This document shows positions 23,224-57,230 of a stretch of 64,000 nucleotides of DNA, one piece after another. The notes beneath the pieces were generated by a model. That model made no database searches. It saw only the letters and a program-made list of their open reading frames with translations, and was not told the DNA's origin. Made by a program: the position numbers and the translations under genes. Numbering within the stretch: the stretch's first letter is position 1; each line of letters starts with the position of its first letter. Source of the DNA: an uncultured Winogradskyella sp. (GTDB lineage Bacteria; Bacteroidota; Bacteroidia; Flavobacteriales; Flavobacteriaceae); contig NZ_CANMIW010000006.1 of NCBI RefSeq assembly GCF_947498005.1, forward strand, positions 186,001 to 250,000, given 5' to 3'.

Positions 23224-23718
23224 ATTCTTATCGCACTACACTACAAAAAATCGAACATTACAAAAGGCGCACTAATCTACAGTGCTGGCGACACTATCGC
23301 TGCACTTCTGTTAGATGAATTTTCTTGGATGCGCTTATTAGGAATGGTATTGGTTGGTGCTAGTTTTTACGCTTTTGAAATCCCAAATTATTTTGATTGG
23401 ATTGTAAAAAAGACACATTTCTTAAAAGGAATAAAAGCAACTTTAACCAAAACGGGTTTAGCTATTGCCTATTTCAATCCGCTTTGGATTGCAAGGCATT
23501 TACTCTTTATTAAATTATTTTCAGGTCAGTTTGAAGCTATTGGCTTCAACCTCTTAGATATTGCCTTTTGGTCTTTTCTAGTCAATATTCCAATTTCATT
23601 TATAGCTAATTATTTAATTCAAAATCGCTTTAAACTAAAGTGGAGGTTTTTAGGAAGCGCCATATTTTCAGCACTAATGGCAATATATTATGCTTTAAGC
23701 GAAACCATTTTCAGCTAG
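23224..23718 (+). CDS. Small membrane protein of unknown function, start codon unclear
   Basis: The reading frame continues in phase right after the xdhB stop and runs 164 codons to 23718. The first ATG is at 23329, but the 35 codons before it (KSNITKGALIYSAGDTIAAL and on) look like genuine coding sequence leading into MRLLGMVLVGASFYAFEIPNY. No ATG, GTG or TTG is available in that part, only ATT (23224) and ATC. About four membrane segments are visible. Possible readings: rare ATT initiation, initiation at 23329 with a short N-terminus, or a gene that has lost its start. No function is assigned. Confidence 0.5.
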   Translation: MLIALHYKKSNITKGALIYSAGDTIAALLLDEFSWMRLLGMVLVGASFYAFEIPNYFDWIVKKTHFLKGIKATLTKTGLAIAYFNPLWIARHLLFIKLFSGQFEAIGFNLLDIAFWSFLVNIPISFIANYLIQNRFKLKWRFLGSAIFSALMAIYYALSETIFS

Positions 23719-23724
23719 AACACT

Positions 23725-25614: not shown

Positions 25615-25950
25615 ATGTCTAAACCATATTACGACGCTGCAGATTTACGCAAATTTGGAAAAATTACAGAATGGAGTGAAGAACTTGGCAACAAATTCTT
25701 TGACTATTACGGAAAAGTTTTTGAAGAAGGCGCGCTTACTGCTCGTGAAAAATCATTGATTGCTTTAGCTGTAGCGCATACAGAACAATGTCCTTATTGC
25801 ATTGATGCGTACACTAAAGATTCACTTCAAAGAGGTGTAACCAAAGAAGAAATGATGGAAGCCATACATGTTGGTGCTGCTATCAAAAGTGGTGCAACCT
25901 TAGTACATGGTGTACAAATGATGAATAAAGTAAATAAATTAGATGGTTAA
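25615..25950 (+). CDS. Carboxymuconolactone-decarboxylase/AhpD-like protein (ArsS-associated peroxidase type)
   Basis: 112 residues from the ATG at 25615, chosen over an upstream TTG at 25588 because MSKPYYDAADLRKFGKI is a natural N-terminus. The AhpD-fold core has REKSLIALAVAHTEQCPYCID with the redox pair Cys59/Cys62. Proteins of this exact type usually neighbour ArsS and are annotated as arsenosugar biosynthesis-associated peroxidase-like proteins, originally selenodomain proteins; here both positions are cysteine. It likely handles thiol or peroxide chemistry for the arsenical intermediates; this is inferred from the neighbourhood. Confidence 0.85.
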   Translation: MSKPYYDAADLRKFGKITEWSEELGNKFFDYYGKVFEEGALTAREKSLIALAVAHTEQCPYCIDAYTKDSLQRGVTKEEMMEAIHVGAAIKSGATLVHGVQMMNKVNKLDG

Positions 25951-26005
25951 CCTTAAAACCGAAAACTAATTTGTTACGTAAGAATTTTATAAGATAATTT
26001 AATTA

Positions 26006-27061
26006 ATGGCAACAAAGTCCCTAAAAAAACTAGGAAGCGATTTAGCACAAAGCAACAAGCAATTAGAAATTCTCTCTAATGGTATTTTTCAGAATGGAGA
26101 ATTACCAACGTTTAAAGCTAAGATTTCTGAAACGAGTCAATTTCCTTTAAAAGCAAAAAAACTTGAAATTCTGCAAATCAATGTAGGTTACATGTGCAAC
26201 CAAGTTTGCGACCATTGTCACGTTGATGCTGGTCCGGACCGTAAAGAAATTATGACCAGAGATACTATGAGACAATGTCTTGAGGTGATTAAAAACACTG
26301 GCGCACACACATTAGATTTAACAGGAGGCGCACCAGAAATGAATCCCGATTTTAGATGGTTTGTAGAAGAAGCTGCCAAAGCCGGAATTAAAGATTTTAT
26401 AGTGCGTTCTAACCTTACCATCATTAGAGCCAATAAAAAATATTACGATTTACCTGAGTTTTTTAAAAAACACAACGTACACGTGGTAAGTTCTATGCCA
26501 CACTGGACACGTGGAAAAACGGACAAACAAAGAGGCGATGGTGTTTTTGATAAGTCAATAAAAGCCTTGCAAGAATTAAATGCCGTTGGTTACGGCATGC
26601 CAGGAAGTGATTTACGTCTCGATTTAGTGTACAATCCATCTGGCGCATTTTTACCAGGAGACCAAGCTTCTATGGAAAAGGATTTTAAAAAGGCATTAAT
26701 GGAAGATTTTGGTATTGAATTTCACAATTTATTTGCCATTACCAATTTACCAATCGCTCGATTTTTAGATTTCCTTATTGCTTCAGAAAATTATGAAGAC
26801 TATATGTATTCGCTGGTAGAAGCTTATAATCCTGCTGCCGTAGAAAATGTAATGTGTACCAACACCATTTCTATCAGTTGGGATGGATATTTATTTGATT
26901 GTGATTTTAACCAAATGTTAGAATTACCAGTAAATAGTAAGTCTAAGCATATTTCAGATTTTAATGAAGAATTATTAGAAGGACGAAATATCGTAATTTC
27001 ACAACATTGTTACGGTTGTACTGCTGGTGCAGGAAGCAGCTGTCAAGGTGTTGTCGCTTAA
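26006..27061 (+). CDS. arsS: Radical SAM protein ArsS, arsenosugar biosynthesis
   Basis: In Synechocystis, ArsS transfers the 5'-deoxyadenosyl group of SAM to dimethylated arsenic, giving a dimethylarsinoyl-deoxyadenosine precursor of arsenosugars. This 351-residue protein has the radical SAM motif CNQVCDHCH (Cys64, 68, 71), DLTGGAPEMN, and the C-terminal Cys-rich domain CYGCTAGAGSSC (Cys335, 338, 346) that marks the rSAM/selenodomain group. The internal CTNTISISWDGYLFDCDF also fits. Neighbours are the peroxidase-like gene upstream and a TIGR04282-like gene downstream. The arsenic substrate is inferred from family and context. Confidence 0.88.
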   Translation: MATKSLKKLGSDLAQSNKQLEILSNGIFQNGELPTFKAKISETSQFPLKAKKLEILQINVGYMCNQVCDHCHVDAGPDRKEIMTRDTMRQCLEVIKNTGAHTLDLTGGAPEMNPDFRWFVEEAAKAGIKDFIVRSNLTIIRANKKYYDLPEFFKKHNVHVVSSMPHWTRGKTDKQRGDGVFDKSIKALQELNAVGYGMPGSDLRLDLVYNPSGAFLPGDQASMEKDFKKALMEDFGIEFHNLFAITNLPIARFLDFLIASENYEDYMYSLVEAYNPAAVENVMCTNTISISWDGYLFDCDFNQMLELPVNSKSKHISDFNEELLEGRNIVISQHCYGCTAGAGSSCQGVVA

Positions 27062-27065
27062 CCCA

Positions 27066-27134
27066 ATTCCGGCGAAAGCAGGAATCTAGAAAATAAAAGA
27101 ATCTAAAATATAAGATTCCTGCTGTCGTAGGAAT
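27066..27134. repeat. Pair of inverted REP-like palindromes
   Basis: Two copies of a 20-bp imperfect palindrome in opposite orientation: 27066-27085 (reverse strand reads ATTCCTGCTTTCGCCGGAAT) and 27115-27134 (ATTCCTGCTGTCGTAGGAAT). A third, better copy is at 37660-37679. They lie between arsS and the next gene and may form a long stem when transcribed. They resemble dispersed extragenic palindromes. Confidence 0.7.
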
Positions 27135-27139
27135 AAAAG

Positions 27140-27820
27140 ATGACCAACCAAACCGCCATATTAATCTTTGCAAATTCTGCAGAAAAAGAATTGATGTCTA
27201 CATCAAGTTCTTCTGCTGATTTTTTTGAATTGCTTGATACGGAAACGGTAAAAACGGTTAAAAAAACAGGTTTACCTTATTTTCATTATTCTGAAAAGGA
27301 ACAAACAGGACAGACTTTTGGCGAGCGTTTTACAAATGCTATTGCTACAATTTACAATAAAGGATTCAACCAAGTTATTACACTTGGCAATGATATACCT
27401 CATCTTACCGCTAATCACATTTTAAAAGCCAAAGACCAACTAAATCATTCCGATGTCGTTTTAGGACCTTCTACGGATGGTGGTTTTTATTTAATGGGTT
27501 TCAAGAAAACGCATTTTAATACAACCAAAATTCAAAATCTTCCTTGGCAAACTAAACAGCTTCGTCATTGTTTAAATTCTGAATTACAGCAGCAACATAT
27601 AAAAATGGCTTATCTTGAAACCTTATCTGATATCGATGACGCTTCTGATTTTGAACTCATTTTAGAAAGTTTCAAACCGTTAGATTTTAAGATAAAAAAG
27701 TTACTCTTAAAACTTCGGAAAACCATACAAATATACTCTAGCTTTACTATTGGTTTTCATGGTAAAACGGTTTTCAAAAAACACTATAATAAAGGTTCGC
27801 CTATTTTACTTCATATCTAA
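27140..27820 (+). CDS. DUF2064/TIGR04282-like transferase, divergent paralogue
   Basis: 226 residues with the GT-A-like nucleotidyl/glycosyl transferase fold of the rSAM/selenodomain-associated transferase group. The middle motifs are kept: TFGERF, GNDIPHL, DVVLGPSTDGGFYLMGFKK. The N-terminal loop that in the sister gene at 35285 reads RNPELGKCKTRLA is missing; here the first strand is followed by a serine run. It may therefore be a non-canonical or regulatory paralogue. It follows arsS at 78 nt, with the palindromes between. Confidence 0.78.
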   Translation: MTNQTAILIFANSAEKELMSTSSSSADFFELLDTETVKTVKKTGLPYFHYSEKEQTGQTFGERFTNAIATIYNKGFNQVITLGNDIPHLTANHILKAKDQLNHSDVVLGPSTDGGFYLMGFKKTHFNTTKIQNLPWQTKQLRHCLNSELQQQHIKMAYLETLSDIDDASDFELILESFKPLDFKIKKLLLKLRKTIQIYSSFTIGFHGKTVFKKHYNKGSPILLHI

Positions 27821-27823
27821 AAC

Positions 27824-27858
27824 GGGAATTTAAATTGTTCTAATTCCCACGATTTTTT
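27824..27858 (+). terminator. Hairpin plus T-run ahead of susC
   Basis: GGGAATT at 27824-27830 pairs with AATTCCC at 27842-27848, then six T at 27853-27858. It starts 4 nt after the stop of the preceding gene, so it can act as an intrinsic terminator or partial attenuator that separates expression of the transport genes from arsS. Confidence 0.5.
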
Positions 27859-27908
27859 CATTCAAACCAAAACATCTCAAAAAAATCGCCACACGTTGTG
27901 GTCTTAAT

Positions 27909-30900
27909 ATGAAGCACATTTACACAGGCTTACTGCTATGCTTATGCTTTTTCAGTAATGCTCAAATTACAATTACCGGAACCGTCACAGATGCGGTTTC
28001 TGCAGCACCTTTACCGTTTGTAAACATTACATCAAACACAGGTTTAGGCACTACAACAAATAACGATGGAACATACAGTATTGTCGTGTCGTCTAACTCA
28101 GATACACTTACATTTTCGTTTTTAGGTTTTAAATCTCAAACTATTGTGGTTGGCGACCAAACCCAAATTAATATCGCATTACAAGAAGATTCTGCGGCTT
28201 TAGATGAAGTTGTTATTACAGCTTTAGGTTTAGAACGCGATACCAAAGAATTAGGTTATGCTGTACAAGCGATTTCCTCAAAAAGTTTAAACGAGGTAAA
28301 AACCATCAATTTTTTAGACAACCTACAAGGAAAATTAGCTGGTGTAACCGTTACACAAGGTGCGACAGGTGTTGGGTCGTCTTCTAAAATTACCATTAGA
28401 GGCGAAGCATCTTTTTCTAATAACAATCCTTTATTTGTAGTAGATGGTGTTCCCATTAATAACGAAACGGTTTTTAATTTTACGAATGAAGCTGCTGCTG
28501 GATTTCAAGAAATTGATTTTGGAAATGGTGGCATGGAAGTAAATCCGGATGATATTGAGTCTGTTACCGTTTTAAAAGGACCAAGTGCTGCTGCTTTATA
28601 TGGTACAAGAGCCTCAAATGGTGTTATTGTTATAGACACCAAAAATGGCAGTAACAAAAGAGGCTTAGGTATTAGTATTAACACATCATTGTTTGTGGAT
28701 TCGGCCTTTAGATTACCTGAATTTCAGAATTCTTATGGTCAGGGAAATTCTGGCCAGTTTGGATATGTTGATGGACTTGGTGGTGGTATCAACGATAATA
28801 TTACCTATTCTTGGGGACCACGTTTAGATACTGGCTTGCTCATTCCACAATTTGATAGCCCTGTGCAATTAGCAAACGGCACTTCAGTAAGAGGTGGAGA
28901 TATTGCGCTTTATAACGGCTTAGAAATTACAGCAACGCCTTTCGTTTCTAATCCAGATAACCTAAAAGATTTCTATCAAACTGGTACCACAACCATTAAT
29001 AATATTTCAGTGTCTAATGGATTTGATACCGGAAACTACCGATTATCATTTACTGATTTAAGAAGTGAATCTATAATTCCTGGTGTTAATTTAGATAGAC
29101 AAACCATTGCTGCTAAATTAAATTTTAATCCAAGTAAAAAGACTGAAATCAATGCTTCTATTAGTTATATAAATTCTAGTAGCGACAACAGACCTTCTAA
29201 TGGTTACGGAAGTGAAAATGCAAATTATTCACTTGTGGCTTGGGGACCACGCTCTTTAAATATTGAAAATTTAAAGGATTATTGGCAACCTGGTTTAGAA
29301 GGCACGCAACAATATTCTTTTAATTATACCTTTTTTGATAATCCGTATTTTATATTAAACGAAAACACCAATGCATTTAATCGGGACCGAATTTTTGGTA
29401 ATATTTCTATTACACAACAACTCAATAAAAACTTAAACATTTCCTTAAGAACAGGAATGGATTACAGTACAGAAAAGCGTCAATTAAGACGTGCTTATAG
29501 TAGCAATCGTTTTAGTAACGGTGCTTATGCTGAGCACGATGTAATGTTTAGAGAAGTGAATACTGATTTTTTAATCAACTATAACAATCAATTTAACGAC
29601 TTTTCTGTGGATGTGTTTTTAGGTGGAAATAGACTCAACCAAACCGCAACAACAAATCAATCGCAGACTGTAAGTTTGGCGCAACCTGGAATTTATAATC
29701 TCAATAATGCAGCTTCACCAATTGAAACGTTTCAGTTTGAAAGTAAAAAACGAATCAATTCATTTTACGGCATTTCAAAATTCGGTTACAAGGACTTTCT
29801 GTTTTTAGACATTACTGGCAGAAACGATTGGTCTAGTGCTTTAGCAACACCTTTTTCGGTAGATGGAACATCGTTCTTCTACCCTTCTGTATCTTCAAGT
29901 TTTATTCTATCTAATGTTACAGAATTACCAAGTATATTTTCTTTTGCAAAGTTAAGAGCAAGTATTGCACAAGTAGGAAATGACACCAGCGCTTACCAAA
30001 CATCTGGTGCTTTTATATCCCAAACGCCTTACAATAGCCAACCGACGTTTAGCAACCAAGATTTTATTCCAAATTCTAATTTAAAACCAGAACGTACCAC
30101 CTCTTATGAATTTGGTACCGATTTACGTTTTTTAGATAATAAATTACGTTTAGATATCACCTACTACAATGCCAACACCGAAGACCAAATCATTTCTTTA
30201 CCTGTAGCTATTTCTTCTGGTTACAGTCAGCAAGTGGTTAATGGCGGCAAAGTGAATACACAAGGTGTAGAAATCATTTTAGGCATTACACCAATACAAA
30301 CGGATAATTTTAATTGGAATACCACTTTCAATTTTGCCACAAACCGTTCCGTTATTAAAGATTTACCACAATCTGATGGACGATTAACACTCGCATACAG
30401 TAGAATTTACGATAGTTCTAACCAAACCGTTTGGTTTCAAGTTGAAGAAGGCGGACGCGTTGGCGATTTCTATGGAACTGGCTATAAGAAAAACGAAAAC
30501 GGTCAGTTTTTAATTGATGATAACGGCAATTACATTGCTGATGACAATTTGAAAAAACTAGGAAATTACAATCCAGATTTCACATTAGGTTGGCGCAATA
30601 ATTTCAACTACAAAAATTGGAACCTAAGCTTTTTATTCGATTGGCGACAAGGTGGAGAAATCGTTTCTAGAACACGCGCTTTAGGAAATGTTGGTGGACA
30701 ATTAGCCGAAACCAGTTACAGACCAGACGATGGTATTATAGCGCAAGGTGTAAATGTTAATACTGGTGCCGCAAATACGGTTGCCATTACTGCAGAAAGT
30801 TATTACAGACAGTTTTACGATAGAAACCATGAAGAAAACAATGTTTACGATGCGTCATTTTTAAAACTGCGTCAATGTGCCATTGGTTACACCTTTAATT

Positions 30901-31103
30901 TTAAAGATGGCTTTTTAGGCTTAAAAGAAGGTGCAGATTTAAACCTGTCTTTGGTAGGAAATAATTTATTCGCCATTACTGAAAATCCACATTTTGACCC
31001 AGAACAATTAGCCGTACAAGGCAACGGATTTGTAAGTGGTGTTGAAGATATGAGTTATGCCACAACACGAAGCATTGGTTTTAAAGCCGGATTTAATTTC
31101 TAA
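27909..31103 (+). CDS. SusC/RagA-family TonB-dependent outer-membrane receptor
   Basis: Outer-membrane importer powered by TonB. 1064 residues: signal peptide to FFSNAQ (about 19), CarboxypepD_reg-like domain at about 22-100 (TGTVTDAVSAAPLPFVN), plug domain from about 110 (DNLQGKLAGVTVTQ, GSSSKITIRGEASF, NPLFVVDGVPINNE, VLKGPSAAALYGTRASNGVIVI) and a large barrel ending in IGFKAGFNF. It pairs with the SusD-like gene 9 nt downstream. The ligand is not readable from sequence; the setting next to arsS and a sodium symporter suggests a small organic solute. A CCACA/TGTGG hairpin lies just before the ATG (27889-27901). Confidence 0.93.
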   Translation: MKHIYTGLLLCLCFFSNAQITITGTVTDAVSAAPLPFVNITSNTGLGTTTNNDGTYSIVVSSNSDTLTFSFLGFKSQTIVVGDQTQINIALQEDSAALDEVVITALGLERDTKELGYAVQAISSKSLNEVKTINFLDNLQGKLAGVTVTQGATGVGSSSKITIRGEASFSNNNPLFVVDGVPINNETVFNFTNEAAAGFQEIDFGNGGMEVNPDDIESVTVLKGPSAAALYGTRASNGVIVIDTKNGSNKRGLGISINTSLFVDSAFRLPEFQNSYGQGNSGQFGYVDGLGGGINDNITYSWGPRLDTGLLIPQFDSPVQLANGTSVRGGDIALYNGLEITATPFVSNPDNLKDFYQTGTTTINNISVSNGFDTGNYRLSFTDLRSESIIPGVNLDRQTIAAKLNFNPSKKTEINASISYINSSSDNRPSNGYGSENANYSLVAWGPRSLNIENLKDYWQPGLEGTQQYSFNYTFFDNPYFILNENTNAFNRDRIFGNISITQQLNKNLNISLRTGMDYSTEKRQLRRAYSSNRFSNGAYAEHDVMFREVNTDFLINYNNQFNDFSVDVFLGGNRLNQTATTNQSQTVSLAQPGIYNLNNAASPIETFQFESKKRINSFYGISKFGYKDFLFLDITGRNDWSSALATPFSVDGTSFFYPSVSSSFILSNVTELPSIFSFAKLRASIAQVGNDTSAYQTSGAFISQTPYNSQPTFSNQDFIPNSNLKPERTTSYEFGTDLRFLDNKLRLDITYYNANTEDQIISLPVAISSGYSQQVVNGGKVNTQGVEIILGITPIQTDNFNWNTTFNFATNRSVIKDLPQSDGRLTLAYSRIYDSSNQTVWFQVEEGGRVGDFYGTGYKKNENGQFLIDDNGNYIADDNLKKLGNYNPDFTLGWRNNFNYKNWNLSFLFDWRQGGEIVSRTRALGNVGGQLAETSYRPDDGIIAQGVNVNTGAANTVAITAESYYRQFYDRNHEENNVYDASFLKLRQCAIGYTFNFKDGFLGLKEGADLNLSLVGNNLFAITENPHFDPEQLAVQGNGFVSGVEDMSYATTRSIGFKAGFNF

Positions 31104-31112
31104 AATAGTACG

Positions 31113-32555
31113 ATGAAAAAATTTATATATACCATTTCAATTTTAAGCTTAATTTTTACAACAAGCTGTACCAAAGATTTTGAAGATATCAATACCAATC
31201 CTAACTCGCCAAGTTCAGTACAACCGAGTTTATTGCTGCGACAAGTTATTTACGATTTTGGCGAAAACATGAGCTACGAAGGTTTTGTGGCTGGAGATTT
31301 ATTAGCACAACACAGAACCGCTTTAGATTTTAATTTATTTGATAGACATGCTTTAAAATCACCACAATTAGGTGGTAATCCTTGGCCTATATTTTACACC
31401 AATTTAAGAGATAATGAAATCACTTTAAACCAATCGCAAACTGTGGAGACTTTTGCAGTTTATGAAGGTCCTGCGTTAATTTTAAAAGCTTATATGACAG
31501 CTGGCTTAACCGATTTATTTGGAGACGTTCCTTATTTTGAAGCCTTTAATGGTGTTGAAGGTTCCGTTACACCAACCTATGATTTACAAGAAGATATTTA
31601 CCTCAACGATAACGGTATTTTAGATAATTTAGATAAAGGCATTGCAGCCATCGAAGCCTATTCCGATGCTATTCCACTAGAAGGCGATATTTTATTTAAT
31701 GGCGATTTAGACGCTTGGATAAAATTTGCAAATGCCTTAAAAATTAAACATTTGCTTCGTATTTCAGATAAAGTAGATGTTTCAAGTAATTTACAAACCT
31801 TGTATGATGAAGGAAATTACATCACTTCAAACAGTGAGAATGCTATTTTCAACTTTACCAATACAGACCCAAACAGTTTTAGATTAGCACAATTACGCAT
31901 TGGAGATTTCAACAATTTCGTGTTATCTGAAACTATGGAAGACATCTTATTAAATTTAAACGATACGAGAATTTCAAGTTTATTTCGTCCGTTTTCTAAT
32001 TCAACTACAAATGAATATAACGGATTATTAAATGGCATTGATGCGTCTTCTACCTCTATTGCCTTAGCCGATTATTCGTTAGCAAGCACAGCTTTTAGAG
32101 AAGACACATCCACTTTAGATGCTAATTTTATTACCGCTTGGGAAGTACAATTTGCTTTAGCAGAAGCGGCTGCCAGAAACATAATTTCGGCAGATGCACA
32201 AACCTTATACAATAATGGTGTTATTTTAGCATTTGAGTATTGGAACACGGAATTACCAGCGGATTATTTAACTGGTCCTGCAGCTTACAATGCTTTTGGG
32301 TCAAATCCAATAGAGCAAATTTTGACTCAAAAATGGATTGCGAATGTTATTAATGGCTATGAAGGTTGGATAGAATACAGAAGAACAGGTTTCCCAGAAT
32401 TACAAACTATTTCTGCGAGTTTAAATAATGATATCATTCCGGTAAGAATGCCTTATCCTGCGGAAGAAGAAGCTTTAAATTTTGAAAATTATAGTGTTGC
32501 TGCATCTGCAACCGACAACAATAGTATTAATGTTCCAGTGTGGTGGAATGAATAA
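31113..32555 (+). CDS. SusD/RagB-like surface lipoprotein
   Basis: Ligand-binding lid lipoprotein for the SusC partner. 480 residues with a lipobox TTSC (Cys about 19), then CTKDFEDINTNPNSPSSV, the typical start of SusD-like proteins of the SusD-like_2 type, and helical repeats rich in aromatic residues. The C-terminal region has KWIANVINGYEGWIEYRRTGFP, a hallmark of the group. It follows susC by 9 nt and precedes the symporter by 6 nt, so the three form one transport unit. Confidence 0.92.
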   Translation: MKKFIYTISILSLIFTTSCTKDFEDINTNPNSPSSVQPSLLLRQVIYDFGENMSYEGFVAGDLLAQHRTALDFNLFDRHALKSPQLGGNPWPIFYTNLRDNEITLNQSQTVETFAVYEGPALILKAYMTAGLTDLFGDVPYFEAFNGVEGSVTPTYDLQEDIYLNDNGILDNLDKGIAAIEAYSDAIPLEGDILFNGDLDAWIKFANALKIKHLLRISDKVDVSSNLQTLYDEGNYITSNSENAIFNFTNTDPNSFRLAQLRIGDFNNFVLSETMEDILLNLNDTRISSLFRPFSNSTTNEYNGLLNGIDASSTSIALADYSLASTAFREDTSTLDANFITAWEVQFALAEAAARNIISADAQTLYNNGVILAFEYWNTELPADYLTGPAAYNAFGSNPIEQILTQKWIANVINGYEGWIEYRRTGFPELQTISASLNNDIIPVRMPYPAEEEALNFENYSVAASATDNNSINVPVWWNE

Positions 32556-32561
32556 AAACGT

Positions 32562-33902
32562 ATGGATATAATTGACTGGCAATGGCTTTTAATAGTTGCA
32601 TCGAGTGTTTTGCTCTTTGTGCTTTCGCCATTAGCTAAAACTACTGACCAATTTTTTAAGGCGGTTCATAACCGAAAAGCGCCAAATGCTTTGGTGCTTA
32701 CTGGTAGCCTTATTATTTCTTGGATTTTTGCTAAGAGTATTACCAATGCAGCAAATTTAGGCTTAAGCTTTGGTATTGTTGGTGGTGTGGCTTATGCTGG
32801 TTACTATTTATCTTTTGCTGTGGCAGGTTTATTAATTTATAAGATTAGAACCGTTGGTGGTTTTAAGAGTATTCATGAATTCCTGACGAGCAAATTTGGC
32901 AAAGGCGCCATGGCCTTATTTTCAATTTTAATTGCCATTCGTTTGTTTAATGAAGTTTGGAGTAACACCATGGTTATTGGTAGTTATTTTGGAGACATTG
33001 GCAGTTCAGCCTACTACAAAGCCATTATTGTTTTTACAGTACTAACCTTAGCCTATGCGATTAAAGGCGGATTGAGTAGTTCTATTTTTACAGATGTCAT
33101 TCAAATGGTATTGTTTAGCATTTTATTGTTAGTCATTCTTTGGAAAATCTTCTCAGTAGAATCCTTTAGCGTTGGCGATGTTACGTCTTCAGGTACATGG
33201 AGTTTTGAGTTGGGTTTAAATCTGTTTTTCGCAGCCATTATTCAATCGTTTAGTTATCCCTTTCACGACCCAGTTTTAACGGATAGAGCTTTTATAAGTT
33301 CGCCAAAAGTCACGCGTAAAAGCTTTTTGTGGGCAAGTGTACTAGGTGCTATTTGCATTATTTTATTTAGTATTATTGGTGTTTATGCACAAACGCAAGG
33401 CTTTACTGGTCAGGCAGCAGTGCAAGTTGGTAAAGCCTTTGGTGTCGTTATATTATTAGTTATTAATTTTATAATGATAACTTCTGCAGCTTCTACCCTA
33501 GACTCAACATTTTCGTCATTTTCCAAATTATTAGCAATTGATTTAGGCATGGTAAATGACCTCACTTTTGGGCGAGCGTCCATGGCTGCTATTGCCATTT
33601 TAGGAACTTTGCCTATTTTTCTTGAAGCTGAAATATTATCCGCAACCACCATCTCTGGAACCATGGTTATTGGCTTAACACCTATTTTTCTATTCTGGAA
33701 AATGAAAGTCCCAAAAATCAGTTTTTATCTGAGCGTTATTACAGGATTGGTATTTGGTTTCTTATTGGTATTTAACGTATTTCCTGAAGCCTTAATTTTT
33801 ACAGAAGGGAAATATGCCGACTTGCTATGGGTAAATATTTGGGGCATTTTAAGTTGTAATATTTTATATTTCATACCGAAATGGTTGAAATCAAATCAAT
33901 AA
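32562..33902 (+). CDS. Sodium:solute symporter family transporter
   Basis: Inner-membrane secondary transporter with about 12-13 hydrophobic helices over 446 residues. SSS-type features include the early NAANLGLSFGIVGGVAYAGYY segment, the AIKGGLSSSIFTDVIQ motif near 175 and a helix with SAASTLDSTFSSFSKLLAIDL near 310-330. It starts 6 nt after the SusD-like gene. It most likely takes into the cytoplasm what the SusC/D pair brings into the periplasm. Substrate not assignable. Confidence 0.87.
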   Translation: MDIIDWQWLLIVASSVLLFVLSPLAKTTDQFFKAVHNRKAPNALVLTGSLIISWIFAKSITNAANLGLSFGIVGGVAYAGYYLSFAVAGLLIYKIRTVGGFKSIHEFLTSKFGKGAMALFSILIAIRLFNEVWSNTMVIGSYFGDIGSSAYYKAIIVFTVLTLAYAIKGGLSSSIFTDVIQMVLFSILLLVILWKIFSVESFSVGDVTSSGTWSFELGLNLFFAAIIQSFSYPFHDPVLTDRAFISSPKVTRKSFLWASVLGAICIILFSIIGVYAQTQGFTGQAAVQVGKAFGVVILLVINFIMITSAASTLDSTFSSFSKLLAIDLGMVNDLTFGRASMAAIAILGTLPIFLEAEILSATTISGTMVIGLTPIFLFWKMKVPKISFYLSVITGLVFGFLLVFNVFPEALIFTEGKYADLLWVNIWGILSCNILYFIPKWLKSNQ

Positions 33903-33927
33903 GACTTCCACTTTAGTAGGAAATAAT

Positions 33928-34755
33928 ATGGATAAAAAAATAAATGATATTGGTAAACGCTCTGGCAAAATGCTACTTTTTGGTGGTGTTTACAGTAATC
34001 TTCAAGCACTTGAAGCTCTTATTGCTGTAGCAGAAGCGGAAGGTATTCCACCAGAAAACTGTATTTGTACAGGCGATATTATTGGGTATTGCGCTCAGCC
34101 AGAAGAAACCATTCAAACATTTAAAAATTGGAACGCAAAAAGCATTGTCGGCAATGTAGAAATACAACTGCGCGATGATGAAGATGATTGTGGTTGCGAT
34201 TTTAGAGCAGGCTCACGATGTGATAATTTTTCGCAACAATGGTATCCTTATGCCAAGAGTAAATTATCAAAGGATTCTTTAAATTATCTTGAGACGCTTC
34301 CAGACCATATTAAATTCACAATTGGGAATCAAAACGCGACGGTTGTTCATGGGTCGTATTTTAATGTTTCAGAATTTATATTTAAATCAACAGATTGGTC
34401 AATAAAAGCTGAAAATTTTGAAGCTGCAAAAAGCGATATGATAATTGCTGGTCATTGTGGTTTACCGTTTCAACAAAAAAACAATACTAAACATTGGATA
34501 AATCCTGGTGTTATTGGAATGCCTGCTAATGATGGAAATCCTAACGTTTGGTATGCTATTTTAGACGATTCAGAACCATCGACTACCGTAAATTTCCGTA
34601 AATTAGATTATGATTATAAACACACAAATCAACTGATGTTAAACGGATTATTACCAGAATCTTATGCAAAAACCATAGTTACTGGTATTTGGGATAACAT
34701 GGAAATATTACCAGAAACAGAAAAACAATTACAAGGAAAACCAATATTACTGTAA
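33928..34755 (+). CDS. Metallophosphoesterase-fold protein with altered metal motifs
   Basis: 275 residues with the calcineurin-like layout LFGGVYSN, TGDIIGY (Asp50), GNVE (Asn76), VVHGS (His141), AGHCG (His176). The first motif, normally DxH, reads Gly20-Val-Tyr22, and the last GHxH reads GHCG, so three usual metal ligands are gone. It has unusual cysteines: 45, 47, 55, 88, 90, 98 and 177, with CGCDFRAGSRC at 88-98. I recall proteobacterial homologues with the same GG-x-Y-S-N opening, so this is probably a real subfamily and not a decayed gene. In this cluster it could be a phosphatase with a different metal site or a thiol/arsenical-binding protein. Confidence 0.82.
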   Translation: MDKKINDIGKRSGKMLLFGGVYSNLQALEALIAVAEAEGIPPENCICTGDIIGYCAQPEETIQTFKNWNAKSIVGNVEIQLRDDEDDCGCDFRAGSRCDNFSQQWYPYAKSKLSKDSLNYLETLPDHIKFTIGNQNATVVHGSYFNVSEFIFKSTDWSIKAENFEAAKSDMIIAGHCGLPFQQKNNTKHWINPGVIGMPANDGNPNVWYAILDDSEPSTTVNFRKLDYDYKHTNQLMLNGLLPESYAKTIVTGIWDNMEILPETEKQLQGKPILL

Positions 34756-34785
34756 GGTTGGACAAACAAATTATACTAAACCTTT

Positions 34786-35295
34786 ATGAAGAATTTTATT
34801 TTACTCTCATTTCTGCTTCTAGGCATTGCAGGACATAGCCAAAGTAGTATAAAAAAGCTGCTAAAAAAACATAACGAAGAAAGTGTTCCTTATATATCAG
34901 TTGACGAATTGGCAATGCCAAAAACCGATGTTATTTTGTTAGATGCTAGAGAAGTTTCAGAATTTAATGTGAGCCATTTAGAAGATGCTGTTTGTGTTGG
35001 CTATGACGAATTTAATTTAGAAACAACTACGGCATTATTCCCAGATAAATCGGCAACCATTGTAGTATATTGTTCATTGGGTATTCGCTCAGAAGACGTT
35101 GCAGAACAGCTTAAAAATGCTGGTTACACCAATGTTTTTAATTTATTTGGTGGTATTTTTGAATGGAAAAATAACGACTTCACAATTTACAATACAGAAG
35201 GCGAAACAGATGATGTTCACGCATTTTCTAAAGAATGGAGTAAATGGCTTTTAAAAGGGAATAAAATATACGATAAGCTTGAAAATGATGAATAA
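34786..35295 (+). CDS. Exported rhodanese-domain protein
   Basis: 169 residues: signal peptide to about GHSQ (18), then one rhodanese domain with DAREVSEFNVSHLEDAV and the active-site loop CSLGIRS (Cys96). Rhodaneses carry sulfur as persulfide or reduce oxyanions such as arsenate. The signal places it in the periplasm. Its 3' end overlaps the following transferase gene. Its presence beside arsS suggests thiol chemistry on an arsenical, which is an inference. Confidence 0.87.
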   Translation: MKNFILLSFLLLGIAGHSQSSIKKLLKKHNEESVPYISVDELAMPKTDVILLDAREVSEFNVSHLEDAVCVGYDEFNLETTTALFPDKSATIVVYCSLGIRSEDVAEQLKNAGYTNVFNLFGGIFEWKNNDFTIYNTEGETDDVHAFSKEWSKWLLKGNKIYDKLENDE

Positions 35296-35911
35296 GAATG
35301 CCCTAATAATCTTTACTCGCAATCCCGAATTGGGAAAATGTAAAACACGTTTAGCAAAAACAATTGGTGATCAAAATGCGCTAGATATTTACAAATACCT
35401 ATTGCAGCACACAGCGAATATATCTCAAAAGGTAAATGCAGATATTTTTGTGTTTTATTCAGAAAACATAAGTACAAATGACTTGTGGCACAATGAGCAT
35501 TTTATAAAAAAATTGCAATCTGGTAGTGACCTTGGTAAGCGTATGGAAAATGCCTTTATGGATGTATTTAATAGCGCCTACGAAAAAGCAGTGATAATTG
35601 GCAGTGACTTGCTAGATTTAAACGAATTCATAATTGATGAATCTTTTAAAAATTTAGAAAATCAAGATTTTGTAATAGGACCAGCAGAAGATGGAGGCTA
35701 CTATCTTTTGGGAATGAAACATGCTTACCCTGAAGTGTTTAACATACAAAATTGGGGAGGAGAGACTGTTTACGAGCAAACAATTAACAAACTCTATGAT
35801 AAAAGTGTGTATGTTTTAAAAACTCTTAACGACATAGATAATGTCGAAGATTTAAAACCATATAAAGTTTTCGAAAAATATTTAACAAACCACCAAATGT
35901 GTAAATTATGA
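35285..35911 (+). CDS. TIGR04282-type arsenosugar biosynthesis glycosyltransferase (DUF2064)
   Basis: About 208 residues from the ATG at 35285; an ATG at 35288 and a TTG at 35279 are also in frame. It has the complete nucleotide-binding loop FTRNPELGKCKTRLAKTIG, DLGKRMENAF, IGSDLLDL and FVIGPAEDGGYYLLGMK, the signature of the rSAM/selenodomain-associated transferase 1 family. It likely transfers or activates a sugar unit in the cytoplasm. It overlaps the rhodanese gene by 11 nt and the next gene by 4 nt (ATGA). Confidence 0.87.
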   Translation: MMNKNALIIFTRNPELGKCKTRLAKTIGDQNALDIYKYLLQHTANISQKVNADIFVFYSENISTNDLWHNEHFIKKLQSGSDLGKRMENAFMDVFNSAYEKAVIIGSDLLDLNEFIIDESFKNLENQDFVIGPAEDGGYYLLGMKHAYPEVFNIQNWGGETVYEQTINKLYDKSVYVLKTLNDIDNVEDLKPYKVFEKYLTNHQMCKL

Positions 35912-36636
35912 AAACAAAATTACTTTTTATTTGCTTTATTTTTTCTGCAATTTCTACTGTTTATTCCCAATGCTCAGTGATGGCTACGGATTTTGAAAAC
36001 AATAGCAGTATTCCAATGTACAATGTAATGGGAGATGTTACAGTTGTGCTAAACACAAATAATACCGTTACGCTTAACTTAGGAGACAATTTTACTACAG
36101 CTGCAGGACCAGACATTAGAGCCTATTTTGTTGCCTCAAATGGAGCTACAGATGCAACCTTAAGAAATTCGTTAATTTCTAATCTTGAAAACTTTGAGTT
36201 TGGCTTAGTTGGTTCTAACTCTGTCAATCAAAACGGTTCAAAAATGTTTACCGTAAACATTCCAACTAATGCCAATATATCTAATTACGACCGCGTATTT
36301 TTTTACTGCCAACAATTTGATCAATTTTGGGATTTTGGTAAAATAATTCCATTTACAAATACAACCTGTTCTGCATTAAATGTAGTAGAAAACACCTTAT
36401 CACAACAAATAAGTTTATCACCAAATCCTGCAAATGACATTTTAGAAATTTCTAATAATGCACAAACCAATATTAATTTCTCTGTGTACAATACATTAGG
36501 AGACCGTATTTTAGAATATAAAAATCTCACGAAACAAACACAAACCATTGATATTTCTTCATTAAAAACTGGGTTATATTTAATACGTTTTTCAGTTAAT
36601 GGTAATACCTTTACAAAAAAGCTAATTAAACATTAA
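35908..36636 (+). CDS. DM13-domain protein with T9SS sorting tail
   Basis: 242 residues with a signal peptide ending near VYSQ (about 21). Residues 40-155 match the DM13 pattern: GDVTVVL, a LNLGDNFTTAAGPDIRAYF segment, and DRVFFYCQQFDQFWDFGKI. DM13 domains are thought to act in redox or as cytochrome-like modules outside the cell. The last 75 residues or so (SLSPNPANDILEIS to GNTFTKKLIKH) form a type A sorting domain for export through the type IX secretion system, so the mature protein should reach the surface. It is coupled by a 4-nt overlap to the transferase upstream and ends 4 nt before the phosphorylase gene. Confidence 0.83.
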   Translation: MKTKLLFICFIFSAISTVYSQCSVMATDFENNSSIPMYNVMGDVTVVLNTNNTVTLNLGDNFTTAAGPDIRAYFVASNGATDATLRNSLISNLENFEFGLVGSNSVNQNGSKMFTVNIPTNANISNYDRVFFYCQQFDQFWDFGKIIPFTNTTCSALNVVENTLSQQISLSPNPANDILEISNNAQTNINFSVYNTLGDRILEYKNLTKQTQTIDISSLKTGLYLIRFSVNGNTFTKKLIKH

Positions 36637-36640
36637 CTCA

Positions 36641-37453
36641 ATGATTAAATTTATAACAGAAAGCACTGAATATTTACAAAGCAAAGGTTTTGAAAATCCC
36701 GAAATAGGCATCATTCTTGGTACTGGTTTAGGACAATTAATTAATGAAATTGAAATCATTGCAGAAGCTAGTTATAATCACATTCCTAATTTTCCAACAG
36801 CAACTGTAGAGTTTCATAAAGGCAAACTTATTTATGGAATTCTAGAAGGTAAAAAAGTCGTTGTGATGCAAGGCCGTTTTCATGTTTATGAAGGTTACAC
36901 CTTGCAAGATGTGACGTTTCCGGTAAGAATTATGGAAAAATTAGGTATTAAAACCTTATTGGTTTCTAATGCTGCAGGTGCAGTAAATTTAGATTTCAAA
37001 AAAGGCGAATTAATGCTTATTGACGACCACTTGAATTTACAAGGTGGTTCGCCATTAGCGTTTAAAGGCGTTTCAGAATTAGGCGAACGTTTTACAGATA
37101 TGAGTGCACCTTATGACGCTGAAATCAACTCAAAATTTGAAAGTATTGCTAAAACACAAAACATTACCTTACACAAAGGTGTTTATGCTAGTGTTGTTGG
37201 TCCTCAATTAGAAACTAGAGCAGAATACAGAATGCTAAAAACCATTGGCGCAGATGCTGTTGGTATGAGCACTGTACCAGAAATTATTGTCGCTAATCAT
37301 TTGAATTTAAAAGCGGCTGCTGTTTCGGTTTTAACTGATGAGTGCGACCCAGACAATCTTAAACCTGTTGATATTGCTGAAATTATCGCCATGGCAGGAA
37401 AAGCAGAACCAAACATGATTACGTTGTTTAAAGAATTGATAAAGACACTTTAA
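36641..37453 (+). CDS. Purine nucleoside phosphorylase, trimeric PNP-I type
   Basis: Cleaves the N-glycosidic bond of purine nucleosides with phosphate, giving base and pentose-1-phosphate. 270 residues: GTGLG (27-31), EFHKGKL (58-64), MQGRFHVYEGY (76-86), SNAAGAV, VGPQLETRAEYRML (Glu191) and VGMSTVPEI (Met209). At the base-recognition position where 6-oxopurine PNPs carry Asn after Thr, this protein reads Thr232-Asp233, as in methylthioadenosine phosphorylases, which accept adenine. It may cleave adenine from 5'-deoxyadenosine-type products of ArsS, or serve ordinary purine salvage together with guaD-xdh. Confidence 0.9.
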   Translation: MIKFITESTEYLQSKGFENPEIGIILGTGLGQLINEIEIIAEASYNHIPNFPTATVEFHKGKLIYGILEGKKVVVMQGRFHVYEGYTLQDVTFPVRIMEKLGIKTLLVSNAAGAVNLDFKKGELMLIDDHLNLQGGSPLAFKGVSELGERFTDMSAPYDAEINSKFESIAKTQNITLHKGVYASVVGPQLETRAEYRMLKTIGADAVGMSTVPEIIVANHLNLKAAAVSVLTDECDPDNLKPVDIAEIIAMAGKAEPNMITLFKELIKTL

Positions 37454-37512
37454 TAGTTGGCAGTCCTCAGTTTGCAGTCTTCAGTCTCACTGATACGCAA
37501 CTAAACGCTGAA

Positions 37513-37588
37513 AACCTTGTAGGTGTAAAGTATAAACTAAATTATTATCGCGAAATATCCTGCAAGGTCATTTTTTCGACCTTGTAGG
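37513..37588. repeat. ACCTTGTAGGT-type palindromic repeats
   Basis: A single half, AACCTTGTAGG at 37513-37523, is followed by a full hairpin: CCTGCAAGGTC (37559-37569) pairs with GACCTTGTAGG (37578-37588, one wobble) around a T-rich loop. They lie in the 262-bp spacer between the PNP and hydroxylase genes. The spacer also starts with a CAGTC(C/T)TCAGT-like simple repeat at 37461-37488. Likely dispersed extragenic repeats; the hairpin may end or stabilise transcripts. Confidence 0.65.
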
Positions 37589-37603
37589 TATAAACCATAA
37601 TCA

Positions 37604-37636
37604 AGACCTAGCAGGTTTTAAAAACCTAGCAGGTCT
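37604..37636. repeat. AGACCTAGCAGGT double palindrome
   Basis: Two direct copies of ACCTAGCAGGT (each itself ACCT/AGGT around AGC) separated by TTTTAAAA-type sequence. Together they fold into one stem with a symmetric AGC/AGC internal loop. Belongs to the same extragenic cluster as the neighbouring palindromes. Confidence 0.65.
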
Positions 37637-37659
37637 AAAATGTATAAAAAGAAAAAGAG

Positions 37660-37679
37660 ATTCCTGCCTTCGCAGGAAT
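37660..37679. repeat. REP-like palindrome ATTCCTGC-CTTC-GCAGGAAT
   Basis: Perfect 8-bp stem with a 4-nt loop, 37 nt before the hydroxylase start. It matches the two degraded copies at 27066-27134, so at least three members of this element lie within 10.6 kb, all in the spacers of the arsS cluster. Confidence 0.75.
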
Positions 37680-37715
37680 GACAAAAGAAGATGCCCATTT
37701 TCATGGAAACAAAAG

Positions 37716-38618
37716 ATGGAAAAATATCTAGACATATTCACAAAATCCTATTCCGATTACTGGAATTATTTAAAATATGAACTCATTGACATCAATCATT
37801 GGGACAATTTTTTCTATGGTTTAATTATAATTTCAATAGTCGTTTGGCTTTTAGAAATTATATTTCCTTGGCGAAAAAACCAAGCCTTAATCCGGAAAGA
37901 TTTTTGGTTGGATACGTTCTATATGTTCTTCAATTTTTTTCTTCTGAATTTAATTGTCTTCATTGCTTTGTCAAATACAGTTTCAGAATTATTTAATGAT
38001 ATTTTAGGCTTAGTTGGTTTATCGGTTTCTAGTTTTCAATTGTTTGATGTTGATGAGCTACCAAAGTGGTTAGGCTTATTTATCTTTTTTATAGTATCCG
38101 ATTTTGTACAATGGAACACACATCGACTTTTACATCGTTTTGAATGGCTTTGGAATTTCCATAAAGTACATCACTCTGTAAAGGAAATGGGCTTCGCTGC
38201 ACACTTGCGTTACCATTGGATGGAACCAGTGATGTACAAGTCTATTTTATACATTCCTATTGCTATTATTGGCGGTTTTGATGCGCAAGATGTGGCTATT
38301 GTCTATTTCTTTAGTATTGCTGTTGGCCATTTAAATCATGCTAATTTGGGTTGGGATTATGGATTTTTAAAATACATTTTTAATAATCCTAAAATGCACA
38401 TTTGGCATCATGTAAAAGAATTGCCAAAAGACGTAAGGTATGGTGTTAACTTCGGACTAACATTAAGTCTTTGGGATTACATTTTTAAAACCGATTACAT
38501 ACCTCACGATGGTAGAGATATTGAACTGGGTTTTGAAGGCGATGAAGAATTTCCTAAGGATTTTATTAGTCAGGAATTGTATCCTGCATTCTCTAAAAAA
38601 AGAGAATCTGATGTTTAA
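37716..38618 (+). CDS. Sterol desaturase / fatty acid hydroxylase family membrane enzyme
   Basis: Di-iron membrane oxygenase of 300 residues. Four to five hydrophobic segments lie at about 32-50, 68-88, 118-133, 175-187 and 193-207. The histidine clusters of the superfamily are complete: HRLLH (136-140), HKVHH (149-153), HLNH (205-208) and HIWHH (228-232). It inserts oxygen into a lipid-like substrate. Placed between PNP and DUF547/glycosyltransferase genes, it could hydroxylate a lipid or ether precursor of the cluster product. Confidence 0.88.
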   Translation: MEKYLDIFTKSYSDYWNYLKYELIDINHWDNFFYGLIIISIVVWLLEIIFPWRKNQALIRKDFWLDTFYMFFNFFLLNLIVFIALSNTVSELFNDILGLVGLSVSSFQLFDVDELPKWLGLFIFFIVSDFVQWNTHRLLHRFEWLWNFHKVHHSVKEMGFAAHLRYHWMEPVMYKSILYIPIAIIGGFDAQDVAIVYFFSIAVGHLNHANLGWDYGFLKYIFNNPKMHIWHHVKELPKDVRYGVNFGLTLSLWDYIFKTDYIPHDGRDIELGFEGDEEFPKDFISQELYPAFSKKRESDV

Positions 38619-38629
38619 AACTTCTACCA

Positions 38630-39502
38630 ATGAAATATCTTTTTATTTTAATTGTACCACTATTTATAATGTCTTGCGCTGCAAAAAAGCAGACTATTAA
38701 CACAGAAAACAACACTTCTGAAGTGGTTTCTGCAGAAACAAACATAACCGAGTCTACTACAATCATTGAAGAACCTAATTCTCAAAATGAAACGGTTGTT
38801 GAGTCAGAAGAAGAATTAATTCCGTTGCCACCAAAACCACCGAAACCATTATCTAATTTTAAATCCATAATGCATAGCAGATGGAATACTATATTGCAAA
38901 AGCACGTTTCAGAATCTGGTAATGTTGATTATAAAGGCATAAAAAACGAATCAGAATTTGATGTCTACATAGATTATCTAAGTGAAACATTACCAGATGA
39001 CACTTGGACTAGAGATGAAAAATTAGCCTATTGGATTAACGCTTACAACGCCTTAACTGTAGATTTAATTCTTAGAAATTATCCTGTAAAAAGCATAAAA
39101 GACATTAAAGACCCTTGGGACCAAAGGCTTTGGCAATTTGGCAACAAATGGCAAAACCTTAATGATATTGAACATAAGATTTTAAGAGAAATGAACGAAC
39201 CTCGTATTCATTTCGCCATTGTTTGTGCATCTATTTCGTGTCCTAAATTACAGAACGAAGCCTTTACAGCTTCAGATTTAGAAACGCAATTAACAAATGC
39301 GACTAAAGAATTTTTGAAGGATTCTACTAAAAATGAACTTTCAGAAAGTAATATTAAATTGTCTAAAATTTTTAAATGGTTTAAAAAGGATTTTGAACAA
39401 GATGGCGATTTAATCGAATTCTTAAATCAATATTCTGATGTTACAATTTCAAGTTCAGCTAAAAAAAGTTTTAAAGATTATAACTGGAATTTGAATGATT
39501 AA
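38630..39502 (+). CDS. DUF547 lipoprotein
   Basis: 290 residues with a lipobox MSCA (Cys about 16), a Thr/Asn/Glu-rich linker with PPKPPKP near 62-68, then the DUF547 domain: YWINAYNALTVDLIL, LNDIEHKILREMNEPRIHFAIVCASISCP and a terminal YNWNLND. The biochemical role of DUF547 is unknown; a conserved Cys and His pattern suggests an enzyme. A second DUF547 protein is at 46651. It starts 11 nt after the hydroxylase stop and is 47 nt ahead of the glycosyltransferase. Confidence 0.86.
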   Translation: MKYLFILIVPLFIMSCAAKKQTINTENNTSEVVSAETNITESTTIIEEPNSQNETVVESEEELIPLPPKPPKPLSNFKSIMHSRWNTILQKHVSESGNVDYKGIKNESEFDVYIDYLSETLPDDTWTRDEKLAYWINAYNALTVDLILRNYPVKSIKDIKDPWDQRLWQFGNKWQNLNDIEHKILREMNEPRIHFAIVCASISCPKLQNEAFTASDLETQLTNATKEFLKDSTKNELSESNIKLSKIFKWFKKDFEQDGDLIEFLNQYSDVTISSSAKKSFKDYNWNLND

Positions 39503-39549
39503 AAAACGAAATAAAAAAACTGACTTCAATACTTTTACGTAAATAGTAT

Positions 39550-40251
39550 ATGATAAGTATAATAATTCCTGTTTTAAATGAAGCTGATAATATTGGTAAT
39601 TTATTAAACCATATTAATCACAATACATCTGCTTCAAATATTTCCGAAATTATTATTGTTGATGGCGGAAGTACGGATGGGACTAAAGAGGTTATTTCAA
39701 ATTTTAATACTTCAAAAGGGATTCAAACTATTTTAATTAATTCTGCAAAAGGTAGAGCAAAACAAATGAATCTTGGTGCAAAACATGCCAAAGGCAGCAT
39801 TTTATATTTTCTTCATGCAGATTCTTTTCCACCAAAAGATTTTGACCAACTTATAATAAATGAAGTTAACAACGACAATAATGCAGGCTGTTTTAGAATG
39901 CAGTTTGATAGTAAACATTGGTGGTTACGTTTAGCCAGTTGGCTCACTCAATTTACTTGGCGTGCTTGTAGAGGAGGCGACCAAAGCCAGTATATAACAC
40001 GTACACTTTTTGATGATATTGGTGGTTATGATGAAAATTACATCATTTACGAAGACAATATTTTAATTAACGAACTTTACGCAAGGCACCAATTTGTTGT
40101 GATTAATAAAAAGCTAAAAACCTCAGCTCGCATGTATAACAAACATGGCATTTGGAAAGTGCAATATCATTTTTGGACGATTTATGTAAAGAAATGGTTT
40201 GGTGCTCCTGCTGATGAGATGCTCTTTTATTACAAAAAACACTTAGGTTAA
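39550..40251 (+). CDS. TIGR04283-type arsenosugar biosynthesis glycosyltransferase (GT2)
   Basis: 233-residue family 2 glycosyltransferase: IIPVLNEADNI at 4-14, IIIVDGGSTDGT, KGRAKQMNLGA, LHADS as the DxD equivalent, then CRGGDQSQYITRTLF and the YDENYIIYEDN acceptor region. These match the rSAM/selenodomain-associated transferase 2 family, which often occurs with TIGR04282 and ArsS. The stop at 40249-40251 directly abuts the stop of the convergent gene. Confidence 0.88.
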   Translation: MISIIIPVLNEADNIGNLLNHINHNTSASNISEIIIVDGGSTDGTKEVISNFNTSKGIQTILINSAKGRAKQMNLGAKHAKGSILYFLHADSFPPKDFDQLIINEVNNDNNAGCFRMQFDSKHWWLRLASWLTQFTWRACRGGDQSQYITRTLFDDIGGYDENYIIYEDNILINELYARHQFVVINKKLKTSARMYNKHGIWKVQYHFWTIYVKKWFGAPADEMLFYYKKHLG

Positions 40252-45674: not shown

Positions 45675-45707
45675 ATAAATATTTAAAAAGTCTAATTTAT
45701 ATAAATC

Positions 45708-46619: not shown

Positions 46620-46650
46620 TGCTTTTTTTTTAAAGTTGATTAATATTTAA

Positions 46651-48858: not shown

Positions 48859-48860
48859 TT

Positions 48861-57224: not shown

Positions 57225-57230
57225 GTTTAC

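Follow-up and report, generated by a model that had tools for sequence, protein, structure and literature searches.

The 64,000-nucleotide stretch of DNA analysed here (the window; contig NZ_CANMIW010000006.1 of an uncultured Winogradskyella sp.) carries a run of 14 genes around arsS, which encodes a radical S-adenosylmethionine (SAM) enzyme. An earlier note, made from the sequence alone, had described this run as an arsenosugar-type biosynthesis cluster joined to a SusC/SusD-symporter import unit. All 14 genes were found on the plus strand at 25615-40251 and in the families given there, with two corrections concerning cofC1 and the symporter (Table 1). The tight packing on one strand was also confirmed, with intergenic gaps of -11 to 88 bp and a single exception of 262 bp between the genes for purine nucleoside phosphorylase (PNP) and the hydroxylase. 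The arsenosugar ties of ArsS, CMD, TIGR04282, TIGR04283 and NF038099 are already known from the names of NCBI models. What is new is an import cassette, cofC1-susC-susD-symporter-metallophosphoesterase, which immediately follows arsS in the window, moves as one block and tends to stand in for the arsenic methyltransferase, within a locus that is real, conserved and modular.

Table 1. Genes of the arsS run and of the run downstream of it, with positions in the window; scores are in bits, followed by the cut-off of the model.
Gene or feature	Position	Strand	Family evidence and remarks
CMD/AhpD-like, 'arsenosugar biosynthesis-associated peroxidase-like'	25615..25950	+	TIGR04169 192.7, cut-off 120
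arsS, radical SAM enzyme	26006..27061	+	TIGR04167 444.6, cut-off 300, model positions 2-302 of 303; DUF3641
cofC1, divergent TIGR04282/DUF2064 protein	27140..27820	+	TIGR04282 106.2, cut-off 134; first cassette gene
SusC TonB-dependent importer	27909..31103	+	TIGR04056 624.9, cut-off 368; TIGR04057; cassette
SusD-like protein	31113..32555	+	PF12771; cassette
SSS-type sodium:solute symporter	32562..33902	+	Weak SSF match; homologues named sodium:solute symporter in source records; cassette
Metallophosphoesterase homologue	33928..34755	+	PF12850 family; half of metal site lost, four invariant cysteines; cassette
Rhodanese 'rhoda_near_glyco'	34786..35295	+	NF045521 202, cut-off 145; N-terminal signal-like stretch judged by eye
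cofC2, TIGR04282 nucleotidyltransferase-like protein	35285..35911	+	TIGR04282 209.6, cut-off 134
DM13 domain with type IX secretion system (T9SS) sorting tail	35908..36636	+	Non-regular member, 27/200 loci
PNP (PRK08202)	36641..37453	+	NF006054 338, cut-off 218; solved PNP 4lna, E 2e-88
Fatty-acid-hydroxylase-like membrane protein	37716..38618	+	PF04116
DUF547 protein	38630..39502	+	PF04784
TIGR04283 GT2 glycosyltransferase	39550..40251	+	TIGR04283 232.5, cut-off 182
Downstream run: NAD(P)/FAD oxidoreductase, NapH-like 4Fe-4S membrane protein, MORN protein, GT2 (AglJ-like), GT2 (PgaC-like), GT-C (MptB-like)	47554..54844	+	

The CX3CX2C cysteines of ArsS (C64, C68, C71), together with C284, C299, C335, C338 and C346, are present in all 141 aligned rows, and the closest named relatives of the protein belong to Winogradskyella, with identity up to 97%. 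Similarly, H55, C59 and C62 of the CMD protein were found in 133/133 aligned rows. Two TIGR04282-like genes had been announced. The second copy (cofC2) is a member of the family, with 3cgx, a 'putative nucleotide-diphospho-sugar transferase', as a relative, but the first (cofC1) scores below the cut-off. It matches positions 33-188 of the model only and lacks the N-terminal G-x-x-K-T-R-L stretch of cofC2, which is nearly fixed in 129 cofC2 rows and not conserved in 57 cofC1 rows. SusC is TonB-linked and adjoins a SusD-like partner, which is the signature of a SusC/SusD pair. Concerning the symporter, its tentative assignment to the SSS type stands on an SSF match of 24.0 bits against a threshold of 22.8, but the match is weak and the score on TIGR00813 is 38 against 184. 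No solved relative of the symporter was found by sequence, and its predicted structure (mean pLDDT 56) was too poor and was left unused.

The neighbourhood of arsS was compared in 200 loci, consisting of 80 named loci, 59 loci from a family sample (199 Flavobacteriaceae genomes, 198 genera) and 61 loci from a genus sample (68 genomes), some of the latter ending at contig ends; the three sets share species. A phylum sample of 296 genomes, among them the window genome (G000, completeness 99.86%), was searched as well. ArsS above cut-off was detected in 148/199 family genomes, 121/296 phylum genomes and 67/68 genus genomes, the remaining genus match being partial. The order CMD-arsS-rhodanese-TIGR04282-PNP-DUF547-TIGR04283 recurs across the Flavobacteriaceae in tens of genera. 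Among the 80 named loci, which are the best matches of the scan, lean to close relatives and have flanks of up to 10 kb, CMD and the second TIGR04282 gene were each found in 77, PNP in 76 and rhodanese in 71, and DUF547 (46) and TIGR04283 (43) often lie past the flank. The comparison of gene neighbourhoods, which the earlier note had proposed as a check, gave a clear linkage of the extra genes with ArsS in relatives, so that the lack of linkage named there as contrary evidence does not occur. The DM13 gene was not retained as a pathway gene or regular cluster member, being present in 13/80 named, 8/59 family and 6/61 genus loci.

Seventy-five loci with the phosphoesterase homologue were collected from the three sets. 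All five cassette genes are present in 69 of them, four in one (cofC1 missing), and the symporter and phosphoesterase only in five; cofC1 alone occurs at seven further loci. In genomes, the cassette was scored through a phosphoesterase search in which matches above 360 bits were counted, the eleven others all being below 95 bits. It was detected in 30/199 family genomes, and 30/30 carry ArsS against a background of 148/199 (Fisher p = 7e-5; in this and the following Fisher tests genomes were taken as independent). In the phylum sample it is found in 6/296 genomes (G000 included), again with ArsS in 6/6 against 121/296. The cassette lies near arsS in 29 of the 30 family genomes, G087 being the exception. 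G379 and G368, which belong to other families, have it next to arsS with no cofC1 match, while in a third genome from outside the family (G267) arsS and the cassette are on separate contigs. In six family genomes (loci L172, L174, L176, L177, L179 and L180) arsS directly follows the cassette or, in two of them, is separated from it by CMD, and genes for rhodanese, the second TIGR04282 protein, PNP and TIGR04283 were not found within the 20 kb fetched; TIGR04283 is located elsewhere in all six genomes. The claim that the import unit is part of the arsS locus is therefore upheld, but the unit is an optional block anti-correlated with the arsenic methyltransferase and not a fixed extra.

The cassette resembles known SusC/SusD importers in its TonB-linked barrel and plug, its SusD-like partner and the susC-susD order. 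It differs from them in its link to arsS, its pairing with symporter and phosphoesterase-homologue genes, its conservation across genera and its lack of glycan-degrading enzymes. The median identity to the window proteins across genera is 73% for SusC, 76% for SusD and 78% for the symporter (25-28 genomes), whereas SusC/SusD pairs are usually more divergent.

The last cassette gene had been described as an odd metallophosphoesterase, and the alignment bears this out. The ligands of dinuclear metallophosphoesterases lie in the motifs DxH, GDxxG, GNH, H and GHTH. In 83/83 copies the cassette homologue lacks the D and H of motif I and the final H of GHTH; the GNH histidine is lost as well, and D50, N76, H141 and H176 are kept. 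One half of the dinuclear metal site of PF12850 is gone. In addition, four cysteines (C55, C88, C90 and C98) are invariant in 83/83 copies. The closest folds are Ap4A hydrolase-like (SapH/3rqz type), and the homologue differs from these calcineurin-like enzymes by the loss of ligands and by the four cysteines.

A search of the 199 family genomes with the arsenite methyltransferase model PRK11873 revealed two classes of match. Canonical ArsM, above the cut-off of the model, occurs in 19/199 genomes. The second class scores 112-134 bits on PRK11873 and is carried by 116 genomes, 116/116 of which have ArsS (116/148 ArsS-positive family genomes). It matches NF038099, 'arsenosugar biosynthesis arsenite methyltransferase ArsM', one member reaching 583 bits against a cut-off of 400, and is called mtA, a name coined in this analysis. 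C48, C143 and C195, which we take as counterparts of the arsenic-binding cysteine triad in known ArsM, are found in 72/72 mtA rows. When near arsS, mtA usually lies between PNP and hydroxylase/DUF547, and in some genomes it is located away from arsS, beside TIGR04283. Canonical ArsM is present in 14 ArsS-positive family genomes; mtA is missing from 11 of these 14, against 21/134 of those without canonical ArsM (p = 2e-6). Taken together, the 148 ArsS-positive family genomes comprise 116 with mtA, 11 with canonical ArsM only, 14 with the cassette only and 7 with none of the three. In one of the 11 (G121) the canonical ArsM has an internal stop and the cassette is also present.

In the window genome there is no match to PRK11873/NF008823 better than E 6.4e-10 and no NF038099 match at E 1e-60, and ArsM, the partner of ArsS in the known pathway, is missing under both models, a gap that the earlier note had not pointed out. 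No remnant of mtA was found behind PNP, either in the window or in 19 further gaps from the genus; twelve weak matches were obtained, with E 1.9 at best. It could be argued that this genome methylates arsenic by an enzyme that both models miss and that the cassette is merely an addition, given that the models detect known families only and that five weak PRK11873 matches, including the one mentioned, exist in G000. However, 14 genomes of the family and 22 of the genus, both counts including G000, would need such an enzyme, and they come from several lineages; we consider this explanation improbable.

The opposite distribution of cassette and mtA is apparent in the genus sample, in which 22 of the 68 genomes carry the cassette only, 43 mtA only, 2 both and 1 neither (Fisher p = 2e-14); the 59 genomes that are at least 90% complete give 20, 36, 2 and 1, respectively (p = 2e-12). 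Across the 61 genus loci, it is chiefly the cassette and mtA blocks that set the two operon versions apart. In the family, mtA is missing in 15/30 cassette-positive genomes compared to 17/118 cassette-negative ArsS-positive ones. No recognised ArsM was found in 14/30 versus 7/118 (p = 5e-7), and in 13/29 versus 3/101 when genomes of at least 90% completeness and at most 5% contamination are considered (p = 1e-7). The methyltransferase search of the phylum sample was confined to mtA (NF038099); outside the family, in the same class, mtA is missing in 3/3 cassette-positive genomes and present in 3/4 cassette-negative ArsS-positive ones.

Tree-aware tests were also performed. On a genus tree of four joined proteins the cassette changes 6 times and mtA 5 times, and the 5 supported independent pairs gave a mean of 3.6 opposite and 0.0 same changes (median p 0.125). 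A second set consisted of 117 genus and family rows, the family rows being 59 of the 148 ArsS-positive genomes plus the window, picked to hold all 30 cassette-positive and all 32 mtA-less genomes. In this set mtA gave 5.7 opposite and 1.9 same of 11 pairs (median p 0.289), and any ArsM gave 6.1 opposite and 0.9 same (median p 0.125). Since the all-row set is rich in cassette-positive and mtA-less genomes and holds few others, the over-sampled cassette-negative ArsM-less class was thinned, with one of its five rows kept in each of six random draws. For any ArsM this resulted in 6.3-6.5 opposite and 0.1-0.3 same of about 10 pairs (median p 0.03). After this choice of rows, G002, G065 and G095 were left out of the all-row and thinned tests because of the very long rows seen in the ArsS tree (60 rows), which was mostly unresolved.

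A number of observations weigh against the idea that imported arsenic replaces methylation. The tree-aware tests, with median p values from 0.03 to 0.29, point the same way as the counts but weakly; the thinned subset, the sole test near p 0.03, was chosen after the all-row result had been seen, and relatedness among genomes weakens the substitution signal. mtA is kept in 15/30 cassette-positive family genomes, as well as in two family members of the phylum sample (G279 and G477), so the cassette is not a simple replacement of mtA, and strict mutual exclusion across the family was rejected. Seven cassette-negative ArsS-positive family genomes also lack a recognised ArsM, and the one genus genome with neither cassette nor mtA (G486, locus L314) has ArsS and the rest of the operon. 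Furthermore, free dimethylarsinate would be a small cargo for a SusC/D importer, and a methyltransferase beyond the PRK11873 and NF038099 models could exist. The solved relative closest to SusC by sequence is BT_2264, presumably part of a peptide importer; for SusD it is 5j5u, with BT_2263 lower in the list. Finally, the block rhodanese-TIGR04282-PNP-(DUF547)-TIGR04283 was found without arsS at 6/20 PNP loci of ArsS-negative genomes (L260, L262, L264, L266, L269 and L271), which indicates that it can exist independently of ArsS.

Given that the cassette is optional and anti-correlated with the methyltransferase, it is more readily understood as a replacement supply of the ArsS substrate than as an extra. 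This suggests that the cell from which the window derives takes up ready-methylated arsenic and does not make it. The substrate of the cassette, the direction of transport and every chemical step are what we infer from the gene content. In the usual version of the operon mtA would supply the methylated arsenical, while in an 'import' version, uptake of an organoarsenical would feed ArsS and replace methylation; this reading has the most support, and the case for it appears evenly balanced. The cassette may capture an extracellular organoarsenical, such as dimethylarsinate, an algal arsenosugar or a thiol/peptide conjugate, carry it across both membranes and hand a methylated arsenical to ArsS, and the cysteine-rich phosphoesterase homologue may bind or release the arsenical. 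ArsS would join the deoxyadenosyl group of SAM to the methylated arsenical and PNP could cleave off adenine to yield arsenoribose-1-phosphate. Nucleotide activation of this product could fall to the CofC-like protein, and the GT2 enzyme could pass the activated arsenoribose to an acceptor, giving a glycoside. Judged from the sequences, the mechanism is plausible. A broader proposal is that TonB-dependent, sodium-driven organoarsenical uptake, with a cysteine-armed former phosphoesterase as handler, lets marine Bacteroidota dispense with methylation, scavenged methylated arsenic serving as the starting material of their arsenosugars; we put it forward tentatively, at somewhat less than an even chance.

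Other cargoes must be weighed. The cassette may import a nutrient free of arsenic, i.e., a peptide, nucleoside or organophosphate, and may simply be lodged by arsS, its anti-correlation with mtA reflecting lifestyle. The relationship of SusC to BT_2264, the Ap4A hydrolase-like fold of the phosphoesterase homologue and the retention of mtA in half of the cassette-positive family genomes are all consistent with such a role. However, the cassette was not found without ArsS in the family or phylum sample, it stays with arsS where the remaining cluster lies elsewhere, opposite changes of cassette and mtA are repeated on the tree, and the phosphoesterase ligands are lost in every copy. An arsenic-free cargo thus appears rather unlikely.

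It is also conceivable that the cassette takes up finished algal arsenosugars or arsenolipids as a carbon or arsenic source, with ArsS acting in parallel or in salvage and methylation not being replaced. Close homologues of the phosphoesterase occur in Winogradskyella endarachnes, W. eckloniae, W. undariae and Polaribacter sargassicola, species whose names we take to point to brown algae. Seaweeds are described as rich in arsenosugar in PMC6656958. On its own, however, this scenario leaves unexplained why ArsS is present in every carrier found and why mtA is the missing gene, and we regard it as very unlikely.

With respect to the remaining genes of the run, the earlier note had proposed a multi-step arsenic pathway with a putative lipid or surface end product. 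The linkage of the extra genes to ArsS agrees with such a pathway, but the occurrence of the block without ArsS speaks against a purely arsenic one. The ArsS-less loci described above favour the view that PNP, TIGR04282, TIGR04283, DUF547 and rhodanese form a general glycoconjugate pathway, that arsenic is handled by CMD, ArsS and mtA only, and that the 'arsenosugar' names derive from the neighbourhood. The presence of TIGR04283 in 8/51 ArsS-negative genomes and the glycosyltransferases downstream fit this view too. Nevertheless, TIGR04283 was detected in 130/148 ArsS-positive genomes versus those 8/51 (p = 4e-21), and mtA is found in or beside the block, even in some genomes where arsS is distant (e.g., G056, G102 and G135). 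We therefore believe that a general pathway is somewhat unlikely.

PNP is the sole member of its family found in the window genome, and the removal of adenine by this enzyme is a step that we infer. Its residues D233 and I/V245, presumably corresponding to N243 and H257 of human PNP, were considered as a sign of an adenine-bearing, 5'-modified substrate and rejected. Among 20 PNPs from 27 ArsS-less genomes, D233 occurs in 20/20 and I/V245 in 13/20, so these residues provide no evidence for an adenine substrate.

The six-gene run downstream (Table 1) follows the TIGR04283 gene in many other genomes. Among 199 arsS loci, many of which are too short to show these genes, the oxidoreductase was found in at least 70 and the iron-sulphur protein in at least 62. 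The run possibly provides electrons and polyprenyl-linked sugars. The stretch that separates it from the arsS run encodes, on the minus strand (44664-47361), another DUF547 protein besides a GH113-like glycoside hydrolase. A GH113-like homologue on the strand opposite to arsS was observed in 45/141 clustered stretches.

The locus shares with the ArsM-ArsS pathway of Synechocystis the same radical SAM family, above cut-off and with CX3CX2C, and relatives of the window genome carry the NF038099 methyltransferase. It differs in that no ArsM was found in the window genome and in that the run adds PNP, TIGR04282, TIGR04283, DUF547, rhodanese and the import cassette. Deoxyadenosyl transfer to a methylated arsenical has reportedly been demonstrated elsewhere, for Synechocystis ArsM/ArsS and for ArsS in vitro. 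According to PMC8552651, arsenosugar biosynthesis in Synechocystis starts with the joint action of ArsS and ArsM in its first steps. PMC12159101, citing Cheng et al. 2021, attributes arsenic adenosylation to a radical SAM enzyme, and TIGR04167 is listed among selenoprotein families in PMC13188914. No literature joining TonB-dependent transport with arsenosugars was found in a search that left most subscription papers outside. The questions touched here, namely how arsenosugars are completed after ArsS and which organisms make them beyond algae and cyanobacteria, appear open in the literature searched, which included few subscription papers. If the cassette does take the place of the methyltransferase, arsenosugar-type chemistry would be widespread in the Flavobacteriaceae, as judged from ArsS in 148/199 genomes, and some lineages would rely on methylated arsenic from others. 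Since both operon versions occur within one genus, strains with and without the methyltransferase are directly comparable.

Additional genes were noted on either side of the cluster. Deoxyhypusine synthase-like, arginase-like and Orn/Arg decarboxylase-like genes lie in a row on the minus strand (55316-58903) and probably belong to polyamine metabolism. Upstream of the cluster, at 20899-24504, the molybdenum subunit of xanthine dehydrogenase and XdhC are encoded, and together with PNP they possibly reflect purine catabolism; xdhC was also found upstream of arsS in 11 of the best 80 named loci.

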